Positions 26,668 through 38,353 of a stretch of 64,000 bases of DNA are shown piece after piece; within the stretch, counting starts at the first letter, position 1; each line of letters opens with the position of its first letter. Both the position numbers and the translations under genes were made by a program. The notes under the pieces were generated by a model. It was not told the origin of the DNA. It did no database searches and saw only the letters and a list, made by a program, of their open reading frames with translations. Location of the stretch: assembly GCA_021325365.1 (NCBI GenBank), contig JAJPHF010000079.1, forward strand, positions 1 through 64,000, read 5' to 3'. The stretch comes from Pseudomonadota bacterium (GTDB taxonomy: Bacteria > Chloroflexota > UBA6077 > JAJPHF01).

Positions 26668-27153
26668 TCATTCTTGAGCAAGCGCCAACAAGGTACGATA
26701 CGCCCCAGCGCCGAGCCAGAGGCCCGCTGTGCGCAGCTCATCCAGGACGGGACGAACCCGGACAATCAGCCCCGTAGTCTTTGCCTCGACGAGTACACCG
26801 GCACTACCGAGAACCCGGAGGCCACGGGCGCGCGCTATGTGGCGACCGGCCGAATCGTCCATGAGCACTGGAATGCCGCCGCCTAGCTCCAGGGCCAAGC
26901 CAATCGCCTCAGCCTCGCCGAGACCGAGGGTAGCTAGTAGAGGCGAGATCAACCGCGAGTTGACTAGCGGTCGCCGGCTGATCCAGGCTGTACCTGGCAC
27001 TTCCGGGGCTCCTGGCCGGCCGCCCCCTCCGGTCACCACCTCTGCATAGACCGCGGCAGGCACGACCACTTCGTCGAATATCGCGTGGAGGAGGTCGAGG
27101 CGTCGGATCGCGGAGTAGAGAATCAGCGGGCTGCTGTCGCTGACGACCGCCAC
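26668..27153 (-). CDS. DUF3368 PIN-like toxin
   Basis: 161 residues: VSDSSPLILYSAIRRLDLL with the first acidic residue Asp6, VVVPAAVYAEVV, LGLGEAEAIGLALELGGGIPVLMDDSAGRHIARARGL, and VRPVLDELRTAGLWL. This is the DUF3368 group of PIN-fold RNases, the toxin of UPF0175 pairs. The ATG lies 4 bases after the antitoxin stop. It should act as an RNase held in check by the preceding gene product. Confidence 0.82.
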   Translation of the reverse strand: MAVVSDSSPLILYSAIRRLDLLHAIFDEVVVPAAVYAEVVTGGGGRPGAPEVPGTAWISRRPLVNSRLISPLLATLGLGEAEAIGLALELGGGIPVLMDDSAGRHIARARGLRVLGSAGVLVEAKTTGLIVRVRPVLDELRTAGLWLGAGAYRTLLALAQE

Positions 27154-27157
27154 CGTG

Positions 27158-27433
27158 TTAGGCGCCGTGAACGTGACGGCGGAGGTCCTCGATCTCCTGA
27201 CGCATCTCGTCCGCGGTTGCCGGCCCTGAGGGAATCTGATGTCGGGCCATCAGATCGAGGATTTCCCAACGACTAACGTTCAGGAGCTGCGCCGCCTTCC
27301 CCTGGCCGATACTGCCTTCACGGAGCAACTCTAGGATGAGAGATTCTCTAGCCTTGGCCACGGCGTTCTCGGGAGACCCGAGCAGCAGGACCAGCTCTTC
27401 GGGCAGCTCTATGAGCATCGTCAATGTTGTCAC
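27158..27433 (-). CDS. UPF0175-family antitoxin
   Basis: 91 residues from GTG 27433 with GGGGAG upstream. LIELPEELVLLLGSPENAV, then ARESLILELLREGSIGQGKAAQLLNVSRWEILDLMARHQIP, the winged-helix pattern of UPF0175. It probably binds both the DUF3368 toxin and its own operator. A longer frame begins at 27493 but has no ribosome site. Confidence 0.8.
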   Translation of the reverse strand: MTTLTMLIELPEELVLLLGSPENAVAKARESLILELLREGSIGQGKAAQLLNVSRWEILDLMARHQIPSGPATADEMRQEIEDLRRHVHGA

Positions 27434-27565
27434 GCCATCTCCCCGCAATTCCATTCCCACTATTTCATTATTCCGGATGACGCACTGACTCACCAGGGCG
27501 AGTCGCGGATGCCGCGGTCATGACACCGAGCGGGACGACGAGGGGCGCGGTCCGGGCGAAGTGGG

Positions 27566-27676
27566 CGGAGCCGACGAGGATTGCTGAGACGGCAACCGGC
27601 GGCGAACCGCCGGCCCCCGGTTCTCAGGCCGGGGAAGCATCAGGTGAAGATGTAGTCTCAGCAGCATTCGGCTCCG
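27566..27676 (+). ncRNA. Y-RNA-like structured RNA, unit 1 (with two internal hairpins)
   Basis: Outer stem GGAGCCGA (27567-27574) with TCGGCTCC (27668-27675); internal loop CGAGGAT opposite GCAT; second stem TGCTGAGAC (27582-27590) with GTCTCAGCA (27655-27663). Inside are hairpins CCGGCGG-CGAA-CCGCCGG (27596-27613) and CCCCGG-TTCTCAGG-CCGGGG (27615-27634), the latter resembling a tRNA T arm. Y RNAs have a stem with CGAAGG opposite CUGCA(C/U)U that Ro60 grips; CGAGG/GCAUU here is close. The TROVE (Ro60) gene ends at 27925, next door. Strand follows from the order CGAGG then GCAT. Confidence 0.6.
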
Positions 27677-27696
27677 ACCTAGAGTCGCACGTCAAG

Positions 27697-27761
27697 CGGG
27701 CTGACGAGGGTGGCCGAGACGGAAACAGTTAACAGCTGTAGTCTCGGCCGCATTCAGCCCG
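27697..27761 (+). ncRNA. Y-RNA-like structured RNA, unit 2 (minimal form)
   Basis: Outer stem CGGGCTGA (27697-27704) with TCAGCCCG (27754-27761); internal loop CGAGGGT opposite GCAT; second stem GGCCGAGAC (27712-27720) with GTCTCGGCC (27741-27749); a 20-base terminal part with a short ACAG/CTGT hairpin and 7-base loop TTAACAG. The sequences of the stems differ from unit 1 but pair perfectly, while the loop bases are conserved. This covariation is strong evidence for a functional RNA fold. Confidence 0.6.
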
Positions 27762-27776
27762 AATGTACTTTAGCAG

Positions 27777-27887
27777 CGCGGCGACGAGGGGCGCAGAAAC
27801 ACTTCCGGGCGCGTAACGGGAACGGGCCTCGCGGCCCGCTCCCGCCGCCACACCGGTCCAAATGTAGTTCCTGCTGCATTCGCCGCG
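27777..27887 (+). ncRNA. Y-RNA-like structured RNA, unit 3
   Basis: Outer stem CGCGGCGA (27777-27784) with TCGCCGCG (27880-27887); internal loop CGAGGGG opposite GCAT; a weaker second stem GCAG/CTGC plus AAC/GTT with one mismatch. The insert carries a hairpin around GGGCC-TCGC-GGCCC (27818-27843). As in units 1 and 2, TGTAGT precedes the 3' strand of the second stem. Confidence 0.5.
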
Positions 27888-27924
27888 AGCAGATTATACC
27901 CTTGTCGCGGGGCTGGGGGTTAGG

Positions 27925-28679
27925 TCATAGCGCGACCCCTTCGATGACGCCCACCCAGTGGTCGGCCGCCAGGCCGCCCTGGGCGAACGCCGCCAGCACG
28001 TCGAACACCGCGTCCGAGAAGCCGCCGACGTTCAGCACGTCCGCGCGCTCGGGAGCCTGAACGGTGCCATAGGGCGTCAGATCGATGCAGGCCAGCTTCG
28101 CCTGCGGGCACCGCGCCCGCAGCGCCTCCCACTCGCGCATGGTCTCGGTCGGCCGCGCCCACGGAGTCCGGGGCCGCGACTGGCTGTCGATCCACGATTC
28201 GAAGTCCGACACGAAGACGACCAGGTCCGCGTGCCGACGCTCGGCGTTCAGCCACGCTAGCGGCAGGGAGCAGTTCGTCCCCCCGTTCGGCAGACCCGCC
28301 AGCCGTTCCGCGTTCGTGAACACGCTGTCCCGCGGGTCCAGGGCCACCGTGTGTAGCCGATCGTTGAACGGCAAGACCGTCGCGCGCGGGTTACGGCGCA
28401 ACAGGACCGACGCGATGAGCGCGCCGACGTCACGGCAGCGCACCTTACTGGTGGCGCCCGGGCGATACCCGGTTACGGGCGACTCCATGGAGCCCGACAC
28501 GTCCAAACAGACGTACACCTGGCCCTCGATCGCCGGGACGTTGGCGCTGGCGACCTCCATCGCCGCCTCCAGCGCCTCCCGCACGACCGCCGGTACGGTG
28601 TTGCCGGCCCGCGCGTGCGCCATCATGAGCTGGTACGGGAAGGCCCGCGCCCGCTGGATGGCCGCCGGGTCGCGCAGGT
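27925..28679 (-). pseudogene. rsr: TROVE/Ro60-family gene, 3' fragment (vWA domain)
   Basis: About 251 codons in the frame DLRDPAAIQRARAFPYQLMM, then PAVVREALEAAMEVASANVP, then a von Willebrand A domain with the MIDAS motif CLDVSGSMESP and GGTNCSLPLAWLN. This is the C-terminal half of a bacterial Ro60 orthologue (Rsr). The 5' half lies 5.15 kb away at 33830-34585 on the same strand, beyond an inserted element. The frame upstream of 28680 hits stops. ATG 28626 could allow a truncated vWA protein. Ro60 binds Y RNAs and misfolded RNA and can tether Y RNA to PNPase. Confidence 0.85.
28675..28679. other. Putative attachment-site core, left junction (attL)
   Basis: CAGGT at the exact point where TROVE homology stops. 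The same CAGGT is at 33830-33834, where homology of the other half stops. Joining the halves at this shared core restores one frame. Confidence 0.5.
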
Positions 28680-28779
28680 CAGTGGTCCGTGGTGCGCCGA
28701 TGTCGGCGCCGGTCTACAGTCAGCTTTTGGAGCAGTGGCTCGCGGCGCCGCCGGCACCGCTGAGCGAGCGGAGCCAACG

Positions 28780-29295
28780 GTGCGAGGCGCCCTACCGTGT
28801 CCGACCTGCGGCCAGATAGACCTCGTCCAGCGGGTTACCGCCGTGCTGGGTGAGGGCATCTCGGACAGCCGCCTCTCGGGACCCAGCGTGGGGTTGGGGA
28901 AGGTTCTCGGGAAGGGCGGACGCTTCGTCCTCTCGGGGCAATACACCTGGCTACGCGGCGAGGTCTGCACCCGTCTCGCCGGCCATCTTGCGGCGGCGAT
29001 GCCCAAGAGCCACTGGATGTGGGGCATCGGCCTGGCGATATTTGGCGTCCTGTGCCTCGTGAACCTGTTTCCGCCTACATCCTCGTCCGGCGCGTCTTGG
29101 ATGGAGTGGCTCATCTTGGGGCTCGGCCCCCTGGGGTTCGGGGTTTCCCTCATCGAGCAGAGCCGACGTGCGGATCGCGCGGCGCGAAACCTAGTCCACC
29201 TGTACTACTGCCATCGGTGCGACGGCGTGTTCGTGCCGGGTCGGTCGGGCCTCGTGCCCGTGGGCGCGGTCGGCGACCTCCTCAACCTTCTCTGA
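28780..29295 (+). CDS. Zinc-ribbon membrane protein carried by the element
   Basis: About 171 residues if GTG 28780 is used. LPCPTCGQIDLVQRVTAVLGEG (first CxxC), two transmembrane helices (MWGIGLAIFGVLCLVNLF and MEWLILGLGPLGFGVSLI), then YYCHRCDGVFVPG (second CxxC). The four Cys probably form one zinc ribbon on the cytoplasmic side. An ATG at 28700 opens a frame MSAPVYSQLLEQWLAAPPAP that looks like the natural N-terminus but is out of frame, so a frameshift near 28770-28790 is possible. Function unknown. Confidence 0.6.
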   Translation: MRGALPCPTCGQIDLVQRVTAVLGEGISDSRLSGPSVGLGKVLGKGGRFVLSGQYTWLRGEVCTRLAGHLAAAMPKSHWMWGIGLAIFGVLCLVNLFPPTSSSGASWMEWLILGLGPLGFGVSLIEQSRRADRAARNLVHLYYCHRCDGVFVPGRSGLVPVGAVGDLLNLL

Positions 29296-29406
29296 ACCCG
29301 CAAACGCTCGTGCGCGGCGAGATGCCGAGAAACCGCGCCGAGCGCTCGCCAGGCCTCCGCCCAAGTTGTTGCGGTACTGGCCTGGCGCGGATCACGAACC
29401 CCGTCC

Positions 29407-31098
29407 TCACGCGATCCTGCGCCGACTCGGATACAGCCAGCGGTGTCGCTTCGCGATCCTCCACGTGTACGCCAGCGAGTTGATAATGGCCGTGAGCATC
29501 TCACCTGTGCGGCTGCCGTAGAACTCGTCGTCGGCCGGGCACGTGTGCGCCGTGAGGTTACGAGCTAGGCACGCGACTAGGTAGTTGCGCGCGATAAAGG
29601 TGTTGGCGGACTGCGTGTACTTCGGATCGTTGAGCAGCACGGTGAGCTTGGAGTATGCATCACTTTCGGAGTTGAAGCCTACCATGTCGCCACCGTTCCG
29701 CTTCGCCTCGTCCTCGAAGAACTGCTGCCACGGCTCCGAGTCCATCACACCATTGATGACGCCTACCAGGCCGGTACGCGGCTTCGCCCAAGCCGGCTTC
29801 CGCTTGGCTCCCACGTGCCTCAGCAAATCCTCTAGCCCCGTGGCGATGTTCTTCACCAGCGTGTACTTGTCCTCTCTCGACCAGCCAGTGAACGCACCAT
29901 GGCCGCGATCTACGGCGCCCATCTTCGATAGCGTGGCAGGCACGATGTCGAGATGATTCACCCAGCAGTAGGCCAGAAGTTCGTCAGCATCGCGGCGGGC
30001 CAATGGTCGTCCTATCTGCAACCCTGTCTGTCCAGCGGTCTCATTGTGCCCCTTGAAGAACACATCGAGCACGTCTCGTGCCTCATCGGTTACCCGCGCC
30101 ACCTTGCTTGCATGTCGTATGTCGCGCTTGACCCACCATGGGCGCCCAGCACTCACATTCTCTGCGATCTGCTCCAGCGCTTCGCCAGTTATCCAGCGTA
30201 TGAACTGCAACTGGTGCTGTATATCGCGATCTACCTCGCGAGCAAGCCGCGCCCGGTCGGCTTCCTCGTAATGATGCCGTAGTCCGCGAAGGAATCGCAG
30301 GAAATCATACAGATCATCGCGCCGCAATTGATAACGTTGAGCGATGAGAAGTGCCAAGTGTGACATTCTGGCGGAGAATCGGCGGCCTTGCGACGCGTTC
30401 AGGCGGATTACCTGGTGAACTTCAACTGCTGCGGAGAAGGCACGCGTTGTAATTCGATCATGGCCCAGGATGAAGGCGGCCAATGCATCATAATCGGCCG
30501 CTCGTCCGCAAAAGGTTCGTAGGTTTTCGTCGCCAGGCCCACGCGGCAGACCATGAGTCCTCCGATAGTCCTCGGGAAGCGCCACGAGAAGGCTATGATT
30601 GTAGAAGTAGTCCGGGAACTGCTGGAGATGATGCAGTTGGTGGACCTGCCAGTAGGCATAGTAATGCTCGGCGGCGTTGACGTACAGATCAGAGCCGGGG
30701 CGCACCTGCACTCGGTACGACATCCACGGCCTGAAGGAGCCTGGGGCCGGCCGCTCAAAGTGAGGGCTGCTTTCTGGCGCGCGGTCAAACGGATGGACGA
30801 AAGCGTCGAGCGTTCTAGCTGGGTAAGCGTGCAACTGCTCGTAGGCATCGGCGTCAGGGGGGCGCCTGACGCGCGGCGAGTTGTCGTCAAAGTCCCGGAT
30901 CATGGCGTGCCTGTATCGGGCGTACTCGGGCGACTGGATCACCCGAGCGCGTGGCAGCATAACGCCTTCCCGCTCGTAGTGCTCCATTTCATGCTCGCCC
31001 ACGCGGACCTTCAGCGCATTGCAGTAGTTGATGAACGCATTGAGCGACAGATACGGGTTGCCGTACCTAGTCAAAGAGGTGTCAATCACGCCCCGCAT
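29407..31098 (-). CDS. 563-residue protein with a C-terminal HEPN-type Rx4H motif
   Basis: Starts at ATG 31098 (GGAG nine bases upstream). No family recognised for residues 1-450, which are mostly helical and rich in aromatic/His residues (AAEHYYAYWQVHQLHHLQQF). Near the end, FIARNYLVACLARNLTAHTC gives R513-N-L-T-A-H518, followed by a helix MLTAIINSLAYTWRIAKR. This is the active-site pattern of HEPN RNases, common in abortive-infection and toxin proteins. Base composition is lower in GC than surrounding genes. Likely a defence or addiction effector carried as cargo; this is inference from one motif and context. Confidence 0.7.
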   Translation of the reverse strand: MRGVIDTSLTRYGNPYLSLNAFINYCNALKVRVGEHEMEHYEREGVMLPRARVIQSPEYARYRHAMIRDFDDNSPRVRRPPDADAYEQLHAYPARTLDAFVHPFDRAPESSPHFERPAPGSFRPWMSYRVQVRPGSDLYVNAAEHYYAYWQVHQLHHLQQFPDYFYNHSLLVALPEDYRRTHGLPRGPGDENLRTFCGRAADYDALAAFILGHDRITTRAFSAAVEVHQVIRLNASQGRRFSARMSHLALLIAQRYQLRRDDLYDFLRFLRGLRHHYEEADRARLAREVDRDIQHQLQFIRWITGEALEQIAENVSAGRPWWVKRDIRHASKVARVTDEARDVLDVFFKGHNETAGQTGLQIGRPLARRDADELLAYCWVNHLDIVPATLSKMGAVDRGHGAFTGWSREDKYTLVKNIATGLEDLLRHVGAKRKPAWAKPRTGLVGVINGVMDSEPWQQFFEDEAKRNGGDMVGFNSESDAYSKLTVLLNDPKYTQSANTFIARNYLVACLARNLTAHTCPADDEFYGSRTGEMLTAIINSLAYTWRIAKRHRWLYPSRRRIA

Positions 31099-31339
31099 GG
31101 CAATAAGCTCCGTGGGTCTCCCAGGGCGCGGCGTCGGAGGTGAAGCCGGCCCGCAGTCCAATGCCGCTGCTGCTGGTATTGTACGCCCCACGGCGGGCGT
31201 GTGGACTGCTTTGCGGATGGTCGAAGCCCGAACTTGCGGAAGTCGCAACATCGGCCCTACTCGCAGCGTGCTGGCCGTTTTGGCGCCGAATTGCGGCGAG
31301 GGGCGCTGCCCGAACATGTACCACGGCGGCCCGCCGGCG

Positions 31340-31519
31340 CTACTGGTCTTGCGGTGTTGCGTCGGCGTAGAGCGCGGCCAGGAACTCGTCCAGGAGCGGA
31401 TCGAGCGCGGTATCGTCAAGCTCGCCGTCCGCCGTGAACGGCACGGGCAGCAGCGTGCCCCGCACCAACTTCTCGGCCCCCCTGCCCTCCGCCGCCCTGT
31501 CCCCAGACCCCTTAGCCAT
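31340..31519 (-). CDS. Small acidic protein B, paralogue of the upstream gene
   Basis: 59 residues. GTLLPVPFTADGELDDTALD and PLLDEFLAALYAD align with GTWFKAPLTPDGKLDEEALR and AMLDAAVPKLHAA of the preceding product. Its ATG overlaps the preceding stop by eight bases, implying translational coupling. No known domain. It lies 241 bases before the HEPN-like gene in the same direction; the gap shows no other gene. Confidence 0.6.
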   Translation of the reverse strand: MAKGSGDRAAEGRGAEKLVRGTLLPVPFTADGELDDTALDPLLDEFLAALYADATPQDQ

Positions 31520-31730
31520 GCTGCACCTCCAGGTCCCGCCCGGCATCGGCGCGGACGGCGTCGATGGCCGCGTGGAGCTTCGGCACCGCCGCGTCCAGCA
31601 TGGCGCGAAGCGCCTCCTCGTCCAGCTTGCCGTCTGGGGTGAGCGGCGCCTTGAACCACGTGCCCACGATCCCGGGCCGTCCATCCGGTGGTCCACCATG
31701 ACTTGCGGCCGAGCGTTCGCGCCTCACCAT
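31512..31730 (-). CDS. Small acidic protein A
   Basis: 72 residues preceded by a strong GAGGAGG ribosome site. After a basic N-terminus (MVRRERSAASHGGPP) the core GTWFKAPLTPDGKLDEEALR then AMLDAAVPKLHAAID repeats in protein B. First gene of the minus-strand operon, facing the HTH gene across a dyad operator. No recognised family; possibly an antitoxin, regulator or structural partner of the HEPN-like protein (inference). Confidence 0.6.
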   Translation of the reverse strand: MVRRERSAASHGGPPDGRPGIVGTWFKAPLTPDGKLDEEALRAMLDAAVPKLHAAIDAVRADAGRDLEVQHG

Positions 31731-31874
31731 CCCTGGCTCCTCCTCTTTGCCTGCAATTAGGCTCCCACCTCATCATCTGGCCAGTGGCCCCGCGCGTGCA
31801 ATGCGTCCCGCACACACCGTGATGCGCTGCCGGTCGCCGGCCTCTGGTGCGGGGCCGGACTCGAAACGCTGTGA

Positions 31875-31899
31875 TAATTGTTCTGATAGAGAACAATTA
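31875..31899. promoter_or_regulatory. Dyad operator between divergent operons of the element
   Basis: Perfect 10-bp inverted repeat TAATTGTTCT (31875-31884) and AGAACAATTA (31890-31899) with spacer GATAG. It sits between the divergent starts at 31730 and 31925, with TAGAAT (31903-31908) just after as a possible -10 for the plus-strand genes. Probably bound by the HTH protein or another element-encoded repressor. Confidence 0.6.
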
Positions 31900-31924
31900 G
31901 GGTAGAATATGGCGGAGGCGGCGC

Positions 31925-32161
31925 ATGGCCGAACTGGGCGATCTGAGCCGGTACGTAACCTTGGCCGAGGCGGCGAAGGCGCTCGGCTTGCCGCGCGACA
32001 CGGTTCGCCGGCGCGTCGAGCGTAGAATAATGGATGGAGTCCACCTGGCCCCACGGGTCTGGCTGGTCCGCCGCGATGAGGTCGAACGTTGGCGCGAGCG
32101 CGGCAAGCTGCCCGTCGGACGCAAGCCCCGCTCGTCTCGCCCCGAGCCGCCCACGAAATAG
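31925..32161 (+). CDS. Excisionase-like helix-turn-helix protein
   Basis: 78 residues: LSRYVTLAEAAKALGLPRDT then VRRRVERRIMDGVHLAPRVWLVRRDEVERWRERG, the winged HTH of the HTH_17/MerR-like excisionase group. The C-terminus is a basic tail (GRKPRSSRP). Located 62 bases before the recombinase on the same strand, the usual place for a recombination directionality factor or repressor. Confidence 0.75.
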   Translation: MAELGDLSRYVTLAEAAKALGLPRDTVRRRVERRIMDGVHLAPRVWLVRRDEVERWRERGKLPVGRKPRSSRPEPPTK

Positions 32162-32223
32162 ATGACCTCGGCGCCGCTGCAACAGCCCGAGGTCTGGCGA
32201 GCCCCACCGAGGAGGAACCCACA

Positions 32224-34017
32224 ATGCCAAGTGTATCACTCCCCGCGCTCGCACCCCCACCCCTGGCCGCAATCTACTGTCGCGTGTCCACTCCGGGTCA
32301 GGAAGCAGACGGCAGCAGCCTAGAAACGCAAGAGGCCGCCTGCCGGGCCTACGCCGAAGCCAACGGTTACCTGGTGGACGACGAGCACGTCTACCATGAG
32401 ACACATAGCGGGGCGGAGTTGTGGGAGCGCCCCAAGCTGACTCGGTTGCGCGAGGCTGTCCGAGATCGCGCGGTGGGTGTAGTGCTCGCGCACGCCATCG
32501 ACCGCCTGACTCGCGACCCAGTCCACCTCGGCGTCGTGCTCTCCGAAGCTGATCACGTCGGGGTGTCGGTCGAATTCGTCACAGAGCCGATGGACGATTC
32601 GCCCGAGGGCCAACTGATCCTGTTCATCCGGGGCTACGCTGCGAAGTTGGAGCGAGCCAAGTTTGCGGAGCGCAGTGCCCGTGGCAAGCAGTACCTGGTC
32701 GAGCACGGACGACCACTGGTCGGGCCACGGCCGCCCTACGGCTACCGTTGGCGGGACGAGGCTAAGACCGGCTGGGAGCCCGACCCCGTGAGCGCCGCTG
32801 TCGTGAACCGCCTGTTCGAGGGTATAGCCGCCGGTAGGACGCTGGAGGCGCTGGCAGCCGAGTTGCGGGCGGAAGGGCTCCCTACACCCAGCGGCCGAGG
32901 CCAGTGGCGTCGCAACACCCTTGCCCACATTCTCCACAATCCTGCTTACTGCGGACGGCCGGTCGCCTACCGCTGGCGGCGCATCAAGGAGCGGGGCCGC
33001 TGGGTGCGCAGCGAACGGCCCGCGAGCGAGCGCGTGCCTCTACCCTCCGATGTCGCGCCTGCACTCGTAGATGTTGGCACATGGGAAGCCGTACAGGCTG
33101 TACTAACCCGCAATCGCGAGAAGGCGGCCCGAAACAACCATCACCCCGACTGGCACTTGCTCCGTGGTGGGTACGCGGAATGCGGGCATTGCGGGCAGAA
33201 GCTTCGCGGCCACCAGTATACCGACCGCCGTGGGGATGCATACCGTGTCGCCGCTTACCGCTGTCCATCGGCACATGGCGGCAGTCTGCACCCCTGCGAT
33301 GGCAAGCCAATCGTCAGCGGGCGCGCGCTGGACGAGGCCGTGTGGGCGCGAGTTGCGGCCGTTCTGCTCAAGCCCGAGACGATCCAGAATAAGGTGGCCC
33401 AACTACGCCAGGATGACCCGACAGTTGCCGATCTAGCCGCTCTAGACCGAGCGCTGGCCGACGTGGAGCGCAAGCGGGCCAAGCTAGTCCGTGTCCTGGC
33501 GGAGATGGACGAGGACACTGCCGCGCCCGTGGTGACCGAGCTTGGTAATCTCGCCGCACAGCGGCGCCGGCTTCTTGGCGAGCGTGCGACGGTGGAGGGA
33601 CGCCAGGCCGCTTGGGCTGTCGCGAGCGCCCGCCTGGACGACTTGGTAGCATGGTGCGAGCGCGTTGCCACCAACGTCAAGAAGCTTGATTACGTCGGCA
33701 AGCGGCTGGCGCTAGAAGCCCTCGGCGCGCGGGTTCGGGTGACCCGCGTGCCCGAGGGCATTCGGTGGGAGCTAGAGGCATCAGCGCCCCTGGACCCGCC
33801 GACGAGCGGTATTGTGTCCAGCACCTGGCCAGGTGCTGGCGCGTCTGCTGCCAGGTCGCGTGCCGCGCAATCGTCGTCCACTCGGCCTGGCCCAGGTCGA
33901 GCGCCGTCAGCATCTGGAACGGTACTGCCGGCGGCGCCCCCTGGCGGTCGGCCTTGTAGCGCTCGAACTCGCGCACGAGCGCCGGCAGCGCCGCCGGGTC
34001 GTGCGGCTTGCCGATGA
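32224..34017 (+). CDS. Large serine recombinase (integrase)
   Basis: 597 residues from ATG 32224 after GAGGAGG. Resolvase domain (~14-160) with IYCRVSTPGQE, catalytic Ser22; recombinase domain (~180-285; PPYGYRWRDEAKTGWEPD); zinc ribbon with Cys320, Cys323, Cys347 and Cys358; then a coiled coil (ALDRALADVERKRAKLVRVL). It integrates circular DNA at an attB site. The last ~62 residues, after about 33830, are read from the antisense of the TROVE gene, because the recombinase frame runs through the right junction. Confidence 0.92.
   Translation: MPSVSLPALAPPPLAAIYCRVSTPGQEADGSSLETQEAACRAYAEANGYLVDDEHVYHETHSGAELWERPKLTRLREAVRDRAVGVVLAHAIDRLTRDPVHLGVVLSEADHVGVSVEFVTEPMDDSPEGQLILFIRGYAAKLERAKFAERSARGKQYLVEHGRPLVGPRPPYGYRWRDEAKTGWEPDPVSAAVVNRLFEGIAAGRTLEALAAELRAEGLPTPSGRGQWRRNTLAHILHNPAYCGRPVAYRWRRIKERGRWVRSERPASERVPLPSDVAPALVDVGTWEAVQAVLTRNREKAARNNHHPDWHLLRGGYAECGHCGQKLRGHQYTDRRGDAYRVAAYRCPSAHGGSLHPCDGKPIVSGRALDEAVWARVAAVLLKPETIQNKVAQLRQDDPTVADLAALDRALADVERKRAKLVRVLAEMDEDTAAPVVTELGNLAAQRRRLLGERATVEGRQAAWAVASARLDDLVAWCERVATNVKKLDYVGKRLALEALGARVRVTRVPEGIRWELEASAPLDPPTSGIVSSTWPGAGASAARSRAAQSSSTRPGPGRAPSASGTVLPAAPPGGRPCSARTRARAPAAPPGRAACR
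33818..33839. other. Right junction (attR): 22-bp perfect palindrome including CAGGT
   Basis: CCAGCACCTGG followed directly by its own complement. The CAGGT at 33830-33834 matches the left junction. In the excised circle, the left arm CCAGCACCTGG would face CCAGGTCAGTGG, a near-dyad as expected for a serine-integrase attP. Confidence 0.5.
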
Positions 34018-34585
34018 GGTACGCGTAGAGCGCCCGCCGCGCCGCGCTCGTCGGCCGCGGGTGGACCATCTTGATCACGTCGGCCAGCGACGGATCGTTG
34101 CCGACGGCCGCCCGGAACAGCGCCTCGTCCGACCGCTGCGCCAGCCAGCGCTGCACCAGCCGCTTGGGCCGCGTGCCGAGCGACTTGCGGCCGGTCTGGC
34201 CCGAGCGCACGATCTGCACGAAGTTCCGCAGCATGCGGCCATCGTCGATCACCCGCTCGAAGACCGTTTCCAGCAGCGCGCCGTCGCGCGTGGCGAGCAC
34301 GGCGCAGAGCAGCGCCGGCAGGTCCTTCATAAAGCCGCGCTCGCGGCAATACACCGCCGTGCGGGCGATGAAGGCCGGCTCGACCGCGGCGCACAGCGCG
34401 AGCACCGTGGCAAGCTGCTCGTCGGCCGACGCGTAGTACGTGCCGTTCAGGCAGCCCGTGGCGGCGTACTGTGCCAGCGCGGCCCGCGGCTCGAGCGCGT
34501 AGGCCAGCCCACCCGCCTCGTTCACGGCCGTGGTCGCCGGCGCCAGCCGACCGATTAGCGACCGAAATAAGTTCTTGTTCGCCAT
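33830..34585 (-). pseudogene. rsr: TROVE/Ro60-family gene, 5' fragment
   Basis: 252 codons from ATG 34585 (AGAGGTAAG upstream): MANKNLFRSLIGRL, AYALEPRAALAQYAATGCLNGTYYA, ALCAAVEPAFIARTAVYCRERGFMKDLPALL, PFQMLTALDLGQAEWTTIARHATWQQTR. This is the HEAT-like ring of the TROVE domain that binds RNA ends. Homology stops at ~33830; the frame continues through the element end to a stop at 33677. Joined with 27925-28674 at CAGGT it would give about 501 residues; relatives are somewhat longer. Confidence 0.87.
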
Positions 34586-37129: not shown

Positions 37130-38353
37130 TCACCCCTTTACGCAGACGACCTGCCGCAGGGTGTGCACCACGTCGACCAGATCGGCCTGGGCCGCCATGA
37201 CCTGGTCGATGGGCTTATAGGCGGCTGGCGTTTCGTCCAGCACGTCCGCGTCCTTGCGGCACTCCACGCCGGCGGTGGCCGCGGCGTGGTCGGCGAGCGT
37301 GAAGCGGCGGCGCGCCTCCGCCCGCGACATCGCGCGGCCGGCGCCGTGCGAGCAGCTCGTGAACGACTCGGGCTGCCCCTTGCCGCGCACGATGTAGCTC
37401 CGCGCGCCCATGCTGCCCGGGATGATGCCCAGATCCCCCTCCCGCGCCCGCACCGCGCCCTTGCGGGTCACGAACACGTTCTCGCCGTAGTGATGCTCGC
37501 GCGCCACGTAGTTGTGGTGGCAGTGCACCACCAGCGCCCCCAGCTCGAACGGCGGCAGGTCGGGCCGCAGCGCCAGCGCCGCCAGAATGTGCCGCAGCAT
37601 CAGCTCGCGGTTCGTGCGTGCGTACTGCTGCGCCCACTGCACGGCGTGCCAGTAGTCGTCGAAGTGCTCGGTGCCCTCGGGGAAGTAGGCCAGGTCGCCG
37701 TCCGGCAGGTGGATGAACCACCGCTCCATGTCGCGCTTCGCCAGCTCGATGAAGAAGCTGCCGATCCGGTTGCCCACGCCCCGCGAGCCGCTGTGCAGCA
37801 TCAGCCAGACCTGGTCCGTCTCGTCCAGGCACACCTCCACGAAGTGGTTGCCCGTGCCGAGCGTGCCCAGGTGGCTGAGGTCGCTGCCGCGGTTCAGCTT
37901 CGGGTACTTCGCCACGATGCGCTCGTAGCCCGGGCGCAGGGCCGCCCAGGCTGCCCGCGCGTCGTCGGGCGGCTCGTCCCAAGCGCCCACGTCGCCGGGG
38001 CCGCCGTGGTTGGTCCGCCCGTGCGGCACCGCCACCTCGATCGCCGCGCGGATGCCCGCCAGGTCGTCCGGCAGGTCGGCCGCCCGCAGCGTCGTCTGCG
38101 CCGCGACCATGCCGCAGCCGATATCGACGCCGACGGCCGCCGGGACGATCGCCCGGCGCGTCGGGATGACGCTGCCGACCGTCGCGCCGATGCCAGCGTG
38201 TACGTCGGGCATGGCCGCCACCCACTTGTGGATGAACGGGAGCTGGGCGACGTTGGTGAGCTGGTCGAGCGCGCTCTGCTCGACGGACACGCCGCGCACC
38301 CACGCCTTGACCAGTCCCTGGTTCCGGGCGCGATAGACCGTGTAGCTCGTCAT
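37130..38353 (-). CDS. rtcB: RNA-splicing ligase RtcB
   Basis: 407 residues. All signature motifs are present: MPDVHAGIGATVGSVI, GVDIGCGM (metal Cys at about residue 80), GTLGTGNHFVEV, LHSGSRGVGN, HCHHNYV, and CSHGAGRAMSR with the His that is guanylylated. RtcB joins 2',3'-cyclic phosphate or 3'-phosphate ends to 5'-OH RNA using GTP and Mn2+. Neighbours TROVE and Y-like RNAs match the known rsr-yrlA-rtcBA association. No RtcA or sigma-54 RtcR is seen. Confidence 0.95.
   Translation of the reverse strand: MTSYTVYRARNQGLVKAWVRGVSVEQSALDQLTNVAQLPFIHKWVAAMPDVHAGIGATVGSVIPTRRAIVPAAVGVDIGCGMVAAQTTLRAADLPDDLAGIRAAIEVAVPHGRTNHGGPGDVGAWDEPPDDARAAWAALRPGYERIVAKYPKLNRGSDLSHLGTLGTGNHFVEVCLDETDQVWLMLHSGSRGVGNRIGSFFIELAKRDMERWFIHLPDGDLAYFPEGTEHFDDYWHAVQWAQQYARTNRELMLRHILAALALRPDLPPFELGALVVHCHHNYVAREHHYGENVFVTRKGAVRAREGDLGIIPGSMGARSYIVRGKGQPESFTSCSHGAGRAMSRAEARRRFTLADHAAATAGVECRKDADVLDETPAAYKPIDQVMAAQADLVDVVHTLRQVVCVKG

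Follow-up and report, generated by a model that had tools for sequence, protein, structure and literature searches.

In a 64-kb stretch of DNA (64,000 nt, 71% GC; hereafter the window), three tandem RNA genes lie directly behind rsr, the gene for a TROVE (Ro60) protein. We count the array among the bacterial Y RNAs in the broad sense, although its scores stay below the curated thresholds of YrlA and YrlB alike. By far the most probable reading, in our view, is that of an ordinary Yrl-type Y RNA array on the minus strand behind rsr, whose Ro60 gene was recently disrupted so that the RNAs are orphaned. What is unusual here is that a tRNA mimic is missing and that the Ro60 gene is disrupted; a trio behind rsr is itself common. 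The three units are:

27775..27886, minus strand: Y RNA unit A, 112 nt, the first after rsr, with a long GC-rich hairpin as its upper part.
27695..27760, minus strand: Y RNA unit B, 66 nt, of the short type with a small loop.
27565..27674, minus strand: Y RNA unit C, 110 nt, with two consecutive hairpins as its upper part.

The original prediction described three units of one fold at this place, in short and long versions (here 66 nt versus 112 and 110 nt), with stem bases that differ and still pair, and this description holds. The outer stems of 7 bp each are GCGGCGA/TCGCCGC, GGGCTGA/TCAGCCC and GAGCCGA/TCGGCTC, and the inner stems, likewise of 7 bp, are CAGGAAC/GTTTCTG, CCGAGAC/GTCTCGG and CTGAGAC/GTCTCAG. 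In a stem search that optimises offsets, all three units pair at 7/7 outer and 7/7 inner positions, which amounts to 42 core pairs without a mismatch. As a control, the same search was applied to reverse complements, where a 7/7 outer stem was found in 4/249 cases compared to 185/249 units of the survey described below; inner stems of at least six pairs were found in 86/249 versus 227/249, so that the inner-stem figure is weak when taken alone. Every unit carries ATGC opposite CTCG as well as TACA after the inner 5′ arm. Thus, all three show the outline by which we define a broad bacterial Y RNA, i.e., an outer stem, an asymmetric loop with ATGC opposite CT(T/C)G, and an inner stem followed by TACA.

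A permissive Rfam search of positions 27400-28000 returned YrlA three times over the full model and YrlB once, on the minus strand only. Unit A matches YrlA (RF02553) with 33.3 bits over model positions 1-114, unit B with 31.2 bits (27760-27695) and unit C with 32.6 bits, all below the gathering score of 69. The units resemble YrlA in the Y core, in both stems and loops, in the match to positions 1-114 and in their place behind rsr on the same strand, and differ from it in these low scores of 31-33 bits and in having no tRNA-like module of T and D arms. Unit B is similar to YrlB (RF02565) in its short length and in matching the whole 78-position model (27765-27693), but reaches 28.9 bits compared to a gathering score of 97. 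No Rfam match in the whole 64-kb window exceeds its gathering threshold. The match to a Y RNA covariance model that the original prediction looked for therefore exists, but below Rfam's threshold.

A second model, R1, was built from 19 above-threshold YrlA hits of other bacteria, with the window excluded; in its alignment both sides are changed in 19 of 30 pairs. R1 gives 44.6 bits for unit A, 44.3-44.4 bits for unit C and, with filters switched off, 39.4 bits for unit B, which is missed under the default filters (2/3 window units recovered). Together with the YrlA and YrlB matches, this homology bears out the view of the units as Y-RNA-like genes adjoining a TROVE gene.

The strand is a different matter. 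The array had been placed on the plus strand, convergent with TROVE, where it would represent a new Y-like RNA class. The motifs on which this was built, CGAGG opposite GCAT and TGTAGT, are present; they are, however, the reverse complements of the Y core CCTCG, ATGC and ACTACA. Folding prefers the plus strand for two of the units and the minus strand for the third: all six folds beat the shuffle mean, with z values of −5.3, −5.3 and −4.3 on the minus and −6.5, −6.5 and −1.7 on the plus strand, so that in the first two stretches the plus fold is better than the minus fold, and folding does not settle the strand. Homology does. With filters off, R1 reaches 10.4 bits at best on the plus strand of positions 27000-29000 compared to 44.6, 44.3 and 39.4 bits on the minus strand, and YrlA and YrlB match the minus strand only. 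Moreover, the units of the best 80 of 572 rsr loci lie on the strand of rsr, and only one of 283 matches outside the window is on the opposite strand, in a tRNA region. We therefore reject plus-strand transcription, to which we assign next to no likelihood, and place the array on the minus strand, co-directional with TROVE and following it.

The array is thus downstream of rsr and on the same strand, although that rsr is split (see below). The first unit begins 38 nt behind the rsr stop codon, and the gaps between the units are 14 and 20 nt. A consensus scan of positions 27300-29000 on both strands showed neither a sigma-70-type promoter nor an intrinsic terminator. Directly behind the array, two small ORFs with UPF0175 and DUF3368 domains (26668-27493, minus strand) match the PADLOC candidate system PDC-S70 and are toxin-antitoxin-like.

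YrlA RNAs are set apart by a tRNA-like module consisting of a T loop and a D arm, and none of the three units has one. The motifs GGTTCRA and AGCTCA..TAGAGC are absent from all of them, unit A has neither a T arm nor a D arm, and ARAGORN detected no tRNA genes in the window. The original prediction had pointed to a T-arm-like hairpin in what is now unit C. This first hairpin of the unit is real, and R1 places it in the T-arm slot. The loop of the hairpin, CCTGAGAA on the coding strand, is however not a T loop by the T-loop consensus. A T arm in unit C was ruled out because the coding-strand loop lacks the T-loop letters.

The TROVE gene in front of the array is split by an insert, a feature overlooked in the original prediction. 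The parts of this region are:

33827..34585, minus strand: rsr N-terminal half, corresponding to residues 1-253 of the relative P0002 (tblastn, 89% identity, no stop).
28678..33826, no strand assigned: insert of 5.1 kb between the rsr halves, with limits set by the end of rsr homology in the P0002 alignment.
27925..28677, minus strand: rsr C-terminal half with the vWA domain and the stop codon, P0002 residues 274-523.
32089..34017, plus strand: large serine recombinase ORF, with the recombinase part in the insert and a tail that runs antisense into rsr.
33818..33839, no strand assigned: perfect palindrome of 22 nt, the longest in the window, centred where the N half of rsr meets the insert.

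P0002, a protein of 523 residues named Chloroflexota, is the closest intact relative. The C half aligns to it by tblastn at 28677-27928 with 88% identity and no stop, and Pfam vWA_Ro60 matches ORF 28626-27925 (1.4e-20). Both halves lack residues 254-273 of P0002, a stretch of 20 positions of which 7 do not vary across a 15-member alignment. An Rsr gene is expected to be one open gene of ~520 residues that scores above the cut-off of 900 of NCBIfam NF041674, and the locus holds instead two halves with 79 and 18 bits (18 for the N half). These split halves represent 6 and 5 contigs, which speaks against a single misassembly, although one sample may be the source of them all. A second rsr N half, P0003, is 83% identical and ends two residues further on, and may reflect a second insertion at the same place. 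In a search with the C half for further split rsr genes, the 120 listed of 1222 matches were largely on short contigs and indistinguishable from contig-end fragments. An RtcB RNA ligase (37130-38353, minus strand, Pfam 2.3e-126) is encoded ~2.5 kb upstream of the rsr start on the same strand; RtcB beside rsr recalls RNA repair operons that contain rsr.

The insert looks like a mobile element, and the palindrome is a possible attachment site. Its recombinase carries the Pfam domains Resolvase (1.8e-28), Recombinase (6.1e-17) and Zn_ribbon_recom (5e-8). The 120 listed of its 255 relatives are 41–55% identical, and the five named among these 120 are all Chloroflexi/Chloroflexota; no relatives were found in viral contigs. 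Comparison of 14 recombinase tails showed that several (P0121, P0127, P0133 and P0134) stop about where the window ORF nears the junction, while others run on past that point; matches of recombinase tails to the antisense rsr tail are weak (best 8e-4, with composition correction off). The insert also contains a long ORF of no confident family (29407-31101, minus strand), with a weak Pfam Ribonuc_2-5A match below cut-off (E 0.012). Near its C end is the stretch RNLTAH, which resembles a HEPN nuclease motif, and this ORF could possibly be defence-type cargo.

The fdxN element is a case in which an insertion interrupts a gene. A programmed excision of this kind, driven by an XisF-like recombinase, would switch on rsr together with the Y RNAs under some condition. 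Among NCBIfam models the recombinase matches XisF best, the domain set is that of XisF and CcrB, the insert junction sits on the palindrome, and P0003 breaks two residues beyond the point seen here. However, the scores are far below the curated cut-offs (XisF 99 bits versus 375, CcrB 69 bits versus 900), and the CcrB, CcrC, IS607 and YneB models match too, so that XisF is simply the nearest model; the target differs as well, being rsr in the window. An fdxN-type element should also have direct repeats at its ends and restore the gene. The two junction stretches compared share no direct repeat over 8 nt, and a 12-nt GC-rich direct repeat in wider stretches is located inside the two rsr halves. 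As the 20 residues present in neither half include seven that are invariant among 15 relatives, simple excision would give no normal rsr. Short on score, repeats and residues alike, programmed excision is very improbable, and an orphaning disruption remains our preferred reading.

Rsr loci of other bacteria (L001-L080, the best 80 of 572 confirmed) were scanned with R1. They come from Verrucomicrobia, Myxococcota, Acidobacteria, Planctomycetes and Proteobacteria; no Chloroflexota appear in the titles of the 80 loci, so that the closest kin such as P0002 are known as proteins only. We found 249 R1 units up to 1.6 kb downstream on the rsr strand in 76 of these best 80 of 572 loci. The arrays comprise 1 to 7 units, three being the commonest size (30/80 loci), and at least three downstream units are present in 56/80 loci, again among the best 80 of 572. 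Examples are Brevifollis gellanilyticus (L007), which has three units and an intact rsr, and Variovorax paradoxus (L049), which has four. Three units in a row are therefore not the new arrangement that had been claimed, while covarying copies near TROVE genes, likewise anticipated, are indeed found. The strict core motif is kept by 242/249 units, which leaves at least three units in 54/80 of the best 80 of 572 loci. Among the 4/80 loci without a downstream unit, L019, L048 and L052 have upstream units, and the contig of L074 stops at rsr.

The R1 scan of the 80 loci and the window gave 285 rows, two of which are from the window; 265 were carried into the counts and 18 left out. Of these 18, 16 lie upstream of rsr, in many cases within tRNA arrays; the other two are a minus-strand match in a tRNA region of L006 and a 34-nt match of 18.4 bits downstream of rsr in L019. 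Matches up to ~35 bits can be tRNA cross-hits, e.g., L004 1639-1768, and YrlA matches occur in 7/14 control genomes, none of them over cut-off. Units below 60 bits were therefore tested apart against tRNA cross-hits (n = 119, 104 of them anchored by motif). Their outer stems are 92% paired, whereas 1000 rounds of shuffling the 3′ arms gave 69% on average and 73% at most, and these covarying outer stems indicate that most of the low-scoring units look like Y RNAs, too. In 40 loci YrlA gave 21 matches over threshold, one of them upstream of rsr, while R1 gave 138 downstream units in the same loci.

The window array is like those of L001-L080 in strand, place and number of units. It is unlike them in lacking a tRNA-like unit, since most of these loci carry at least one: among those that have units and extend for at least 1 kb downstream (from the best 80 of 572), a unit of at least 60 bits is present downstream in 66/73 and absent in 7/73, two of which (L034 and L039) have a unit of at least 60 bits upstream instead.

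Y RNA arrays of at least three units were reported in none of the titles, abstract openings and excerpts consulted. The nearest case is a Listeria phage, for which excerpts of PMC12282133 describe three regions of high transcription close to a putative Rsr; its authors suggest that at least one of these regions may be a Y RNA. The viral-contig rsr loci L084, L131, L132 and L151, which were kept out of the array counts, have two or more Y-like units each; L132 and L151, for instance, have three behind rsr. In the Acidobacteria loci L004, L011, L014, L029 and L078, long tRNA gene arrays are directly upstream of rsr, so that these neighbourhoods hold tRNAs, rsr and tRNA-mimic Y RNAs together.

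Assignment of unit types by simple T-loop and D-arm patterns (249 units, best 80 of 572 loci) showed a relation to length. T loop and D arm are both missing from 29/31 units of at most 90 nt. Among 54 units of 91–112 nt, 38 have a T loop without a D arm, 3 have both and 13 neither, and among 164 longer units, 94 have both, 47 only a T loop, 1 only a D arm and 22 neither. The units of 91–112 nt with a T loop and no D arm are a recurrent middle-sized type that is mostly below Rfam's threshold, and perhaps a class of its own. There also seems to be an order within the arrays: short units tend to lead, and the best tRNA mimic tends to close the row. The shortest unit is first in 34 of the 56 arrays with at least three units (expected 15.6; 0/10,000 shuffles of unit order gave as many), and 28 of 56 end with their best-scoring unit (expected 15.6; 1/10,000 gave as many), figures that overstate the evidence because the shuffles ignore kinship among loci. 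The window, with 112, 66 and 110 nt in this order, departs from the short-first tendency, a point against the explanation that we favour. The Rfam scores below threshold, the loss of unit B under default filters, the better plus-strand folds of two units and the lack of a promoter or terminator in the scan of 27300-29000 count against it as well.

The array could instead consist of decaying remnants that lost their T and D arms after the rsr break and no longer function. In favour of this, T loop and D arm are missing from all three units, rsr is split, and deletion of a Ro60 orthologue lowers soluble Y RNA levels, as excerpts of PMC4726728 report. Decay is difficult to reconcile, however, with 42 core pairs without a mismatch and with rsr halves that show no other lesion. 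Moreover, units without a D arm are normal array members beside intact rsr, and the 7/73 loci (from the best 80 of 572) likewise have no tRNA-like unit downstream. We thus consider decay unlikely and retain the reading of an intact array that was recently orphaned, the recency being suggested by rsr halves and Y stems that are otherwise undamaged.

By analogy with studied Y RNAs, the trio likely works as Y RNA adaptors of Rsr. In the bacteria covered by excerpts of PMC4726728 and PMC8394870, Rsr binds the lower stem of the Y RNA, and in Deinococcus the DrY RNA serves as a tether between Rsr and PNPase and as a gate for its substrates. Accordingly worded for the window, the lower stem with its internal loop would bind Rsr, and the three different upper parts could act as gates or tethers that choose what Rsr meets, making the three RNAs alternative adaptors for one Rsr. 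Located 38 nt from the stop codon, the array would be co-transcribed with rsr. With its gene interrupted, the locus would yield no working Rsr, and the Y RNAs are then probably orphaned unless the genome holds a second rsr. A precedent for tandem Y RNAs is the Salmonella operon rsr-yrlBA-rtcBA with two of them, as given in excerpts of PMC7790460. To the extent covered there, the window is similar in having more than one Y RNA with rsr and an RtcB gene nearby, and differs in its three units, none of them tRNA-like, in its split rsr, and in the position of rtcB ~2.5 kb upstream of rsr rather than behind the Y RNAs.

A broader picture can be proposed more tentatively, and we hold it to be somewhat less probable than its opposite: that an ordered kit found across phyla, with short cores first, then T-arm-only units and tRNA mimics last, supplies structurally distinct Y RNAs, each class being a separate adaptor for the one Ro60 ring, and that the window represents a mimic-less kit left after an integrative element knocked out rsr at a possibly recurrent site (P0003).

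Work on bacterial Y RNAs has mostly dealt with one or two such RNAs per species. Our survey suggests that arrays of at least three units with multiple shapes are usual beside this rsr clade (best 80 of 572 loci), and that Rfam's YrlA threshold catches few such units. The roles of different Y RNAs for one Ro60 ring thereby become testable by unit-by-unit removal, and the window may be a naturally occurring example of Y RNAs that have lost their Ro60 gene to a knockout.
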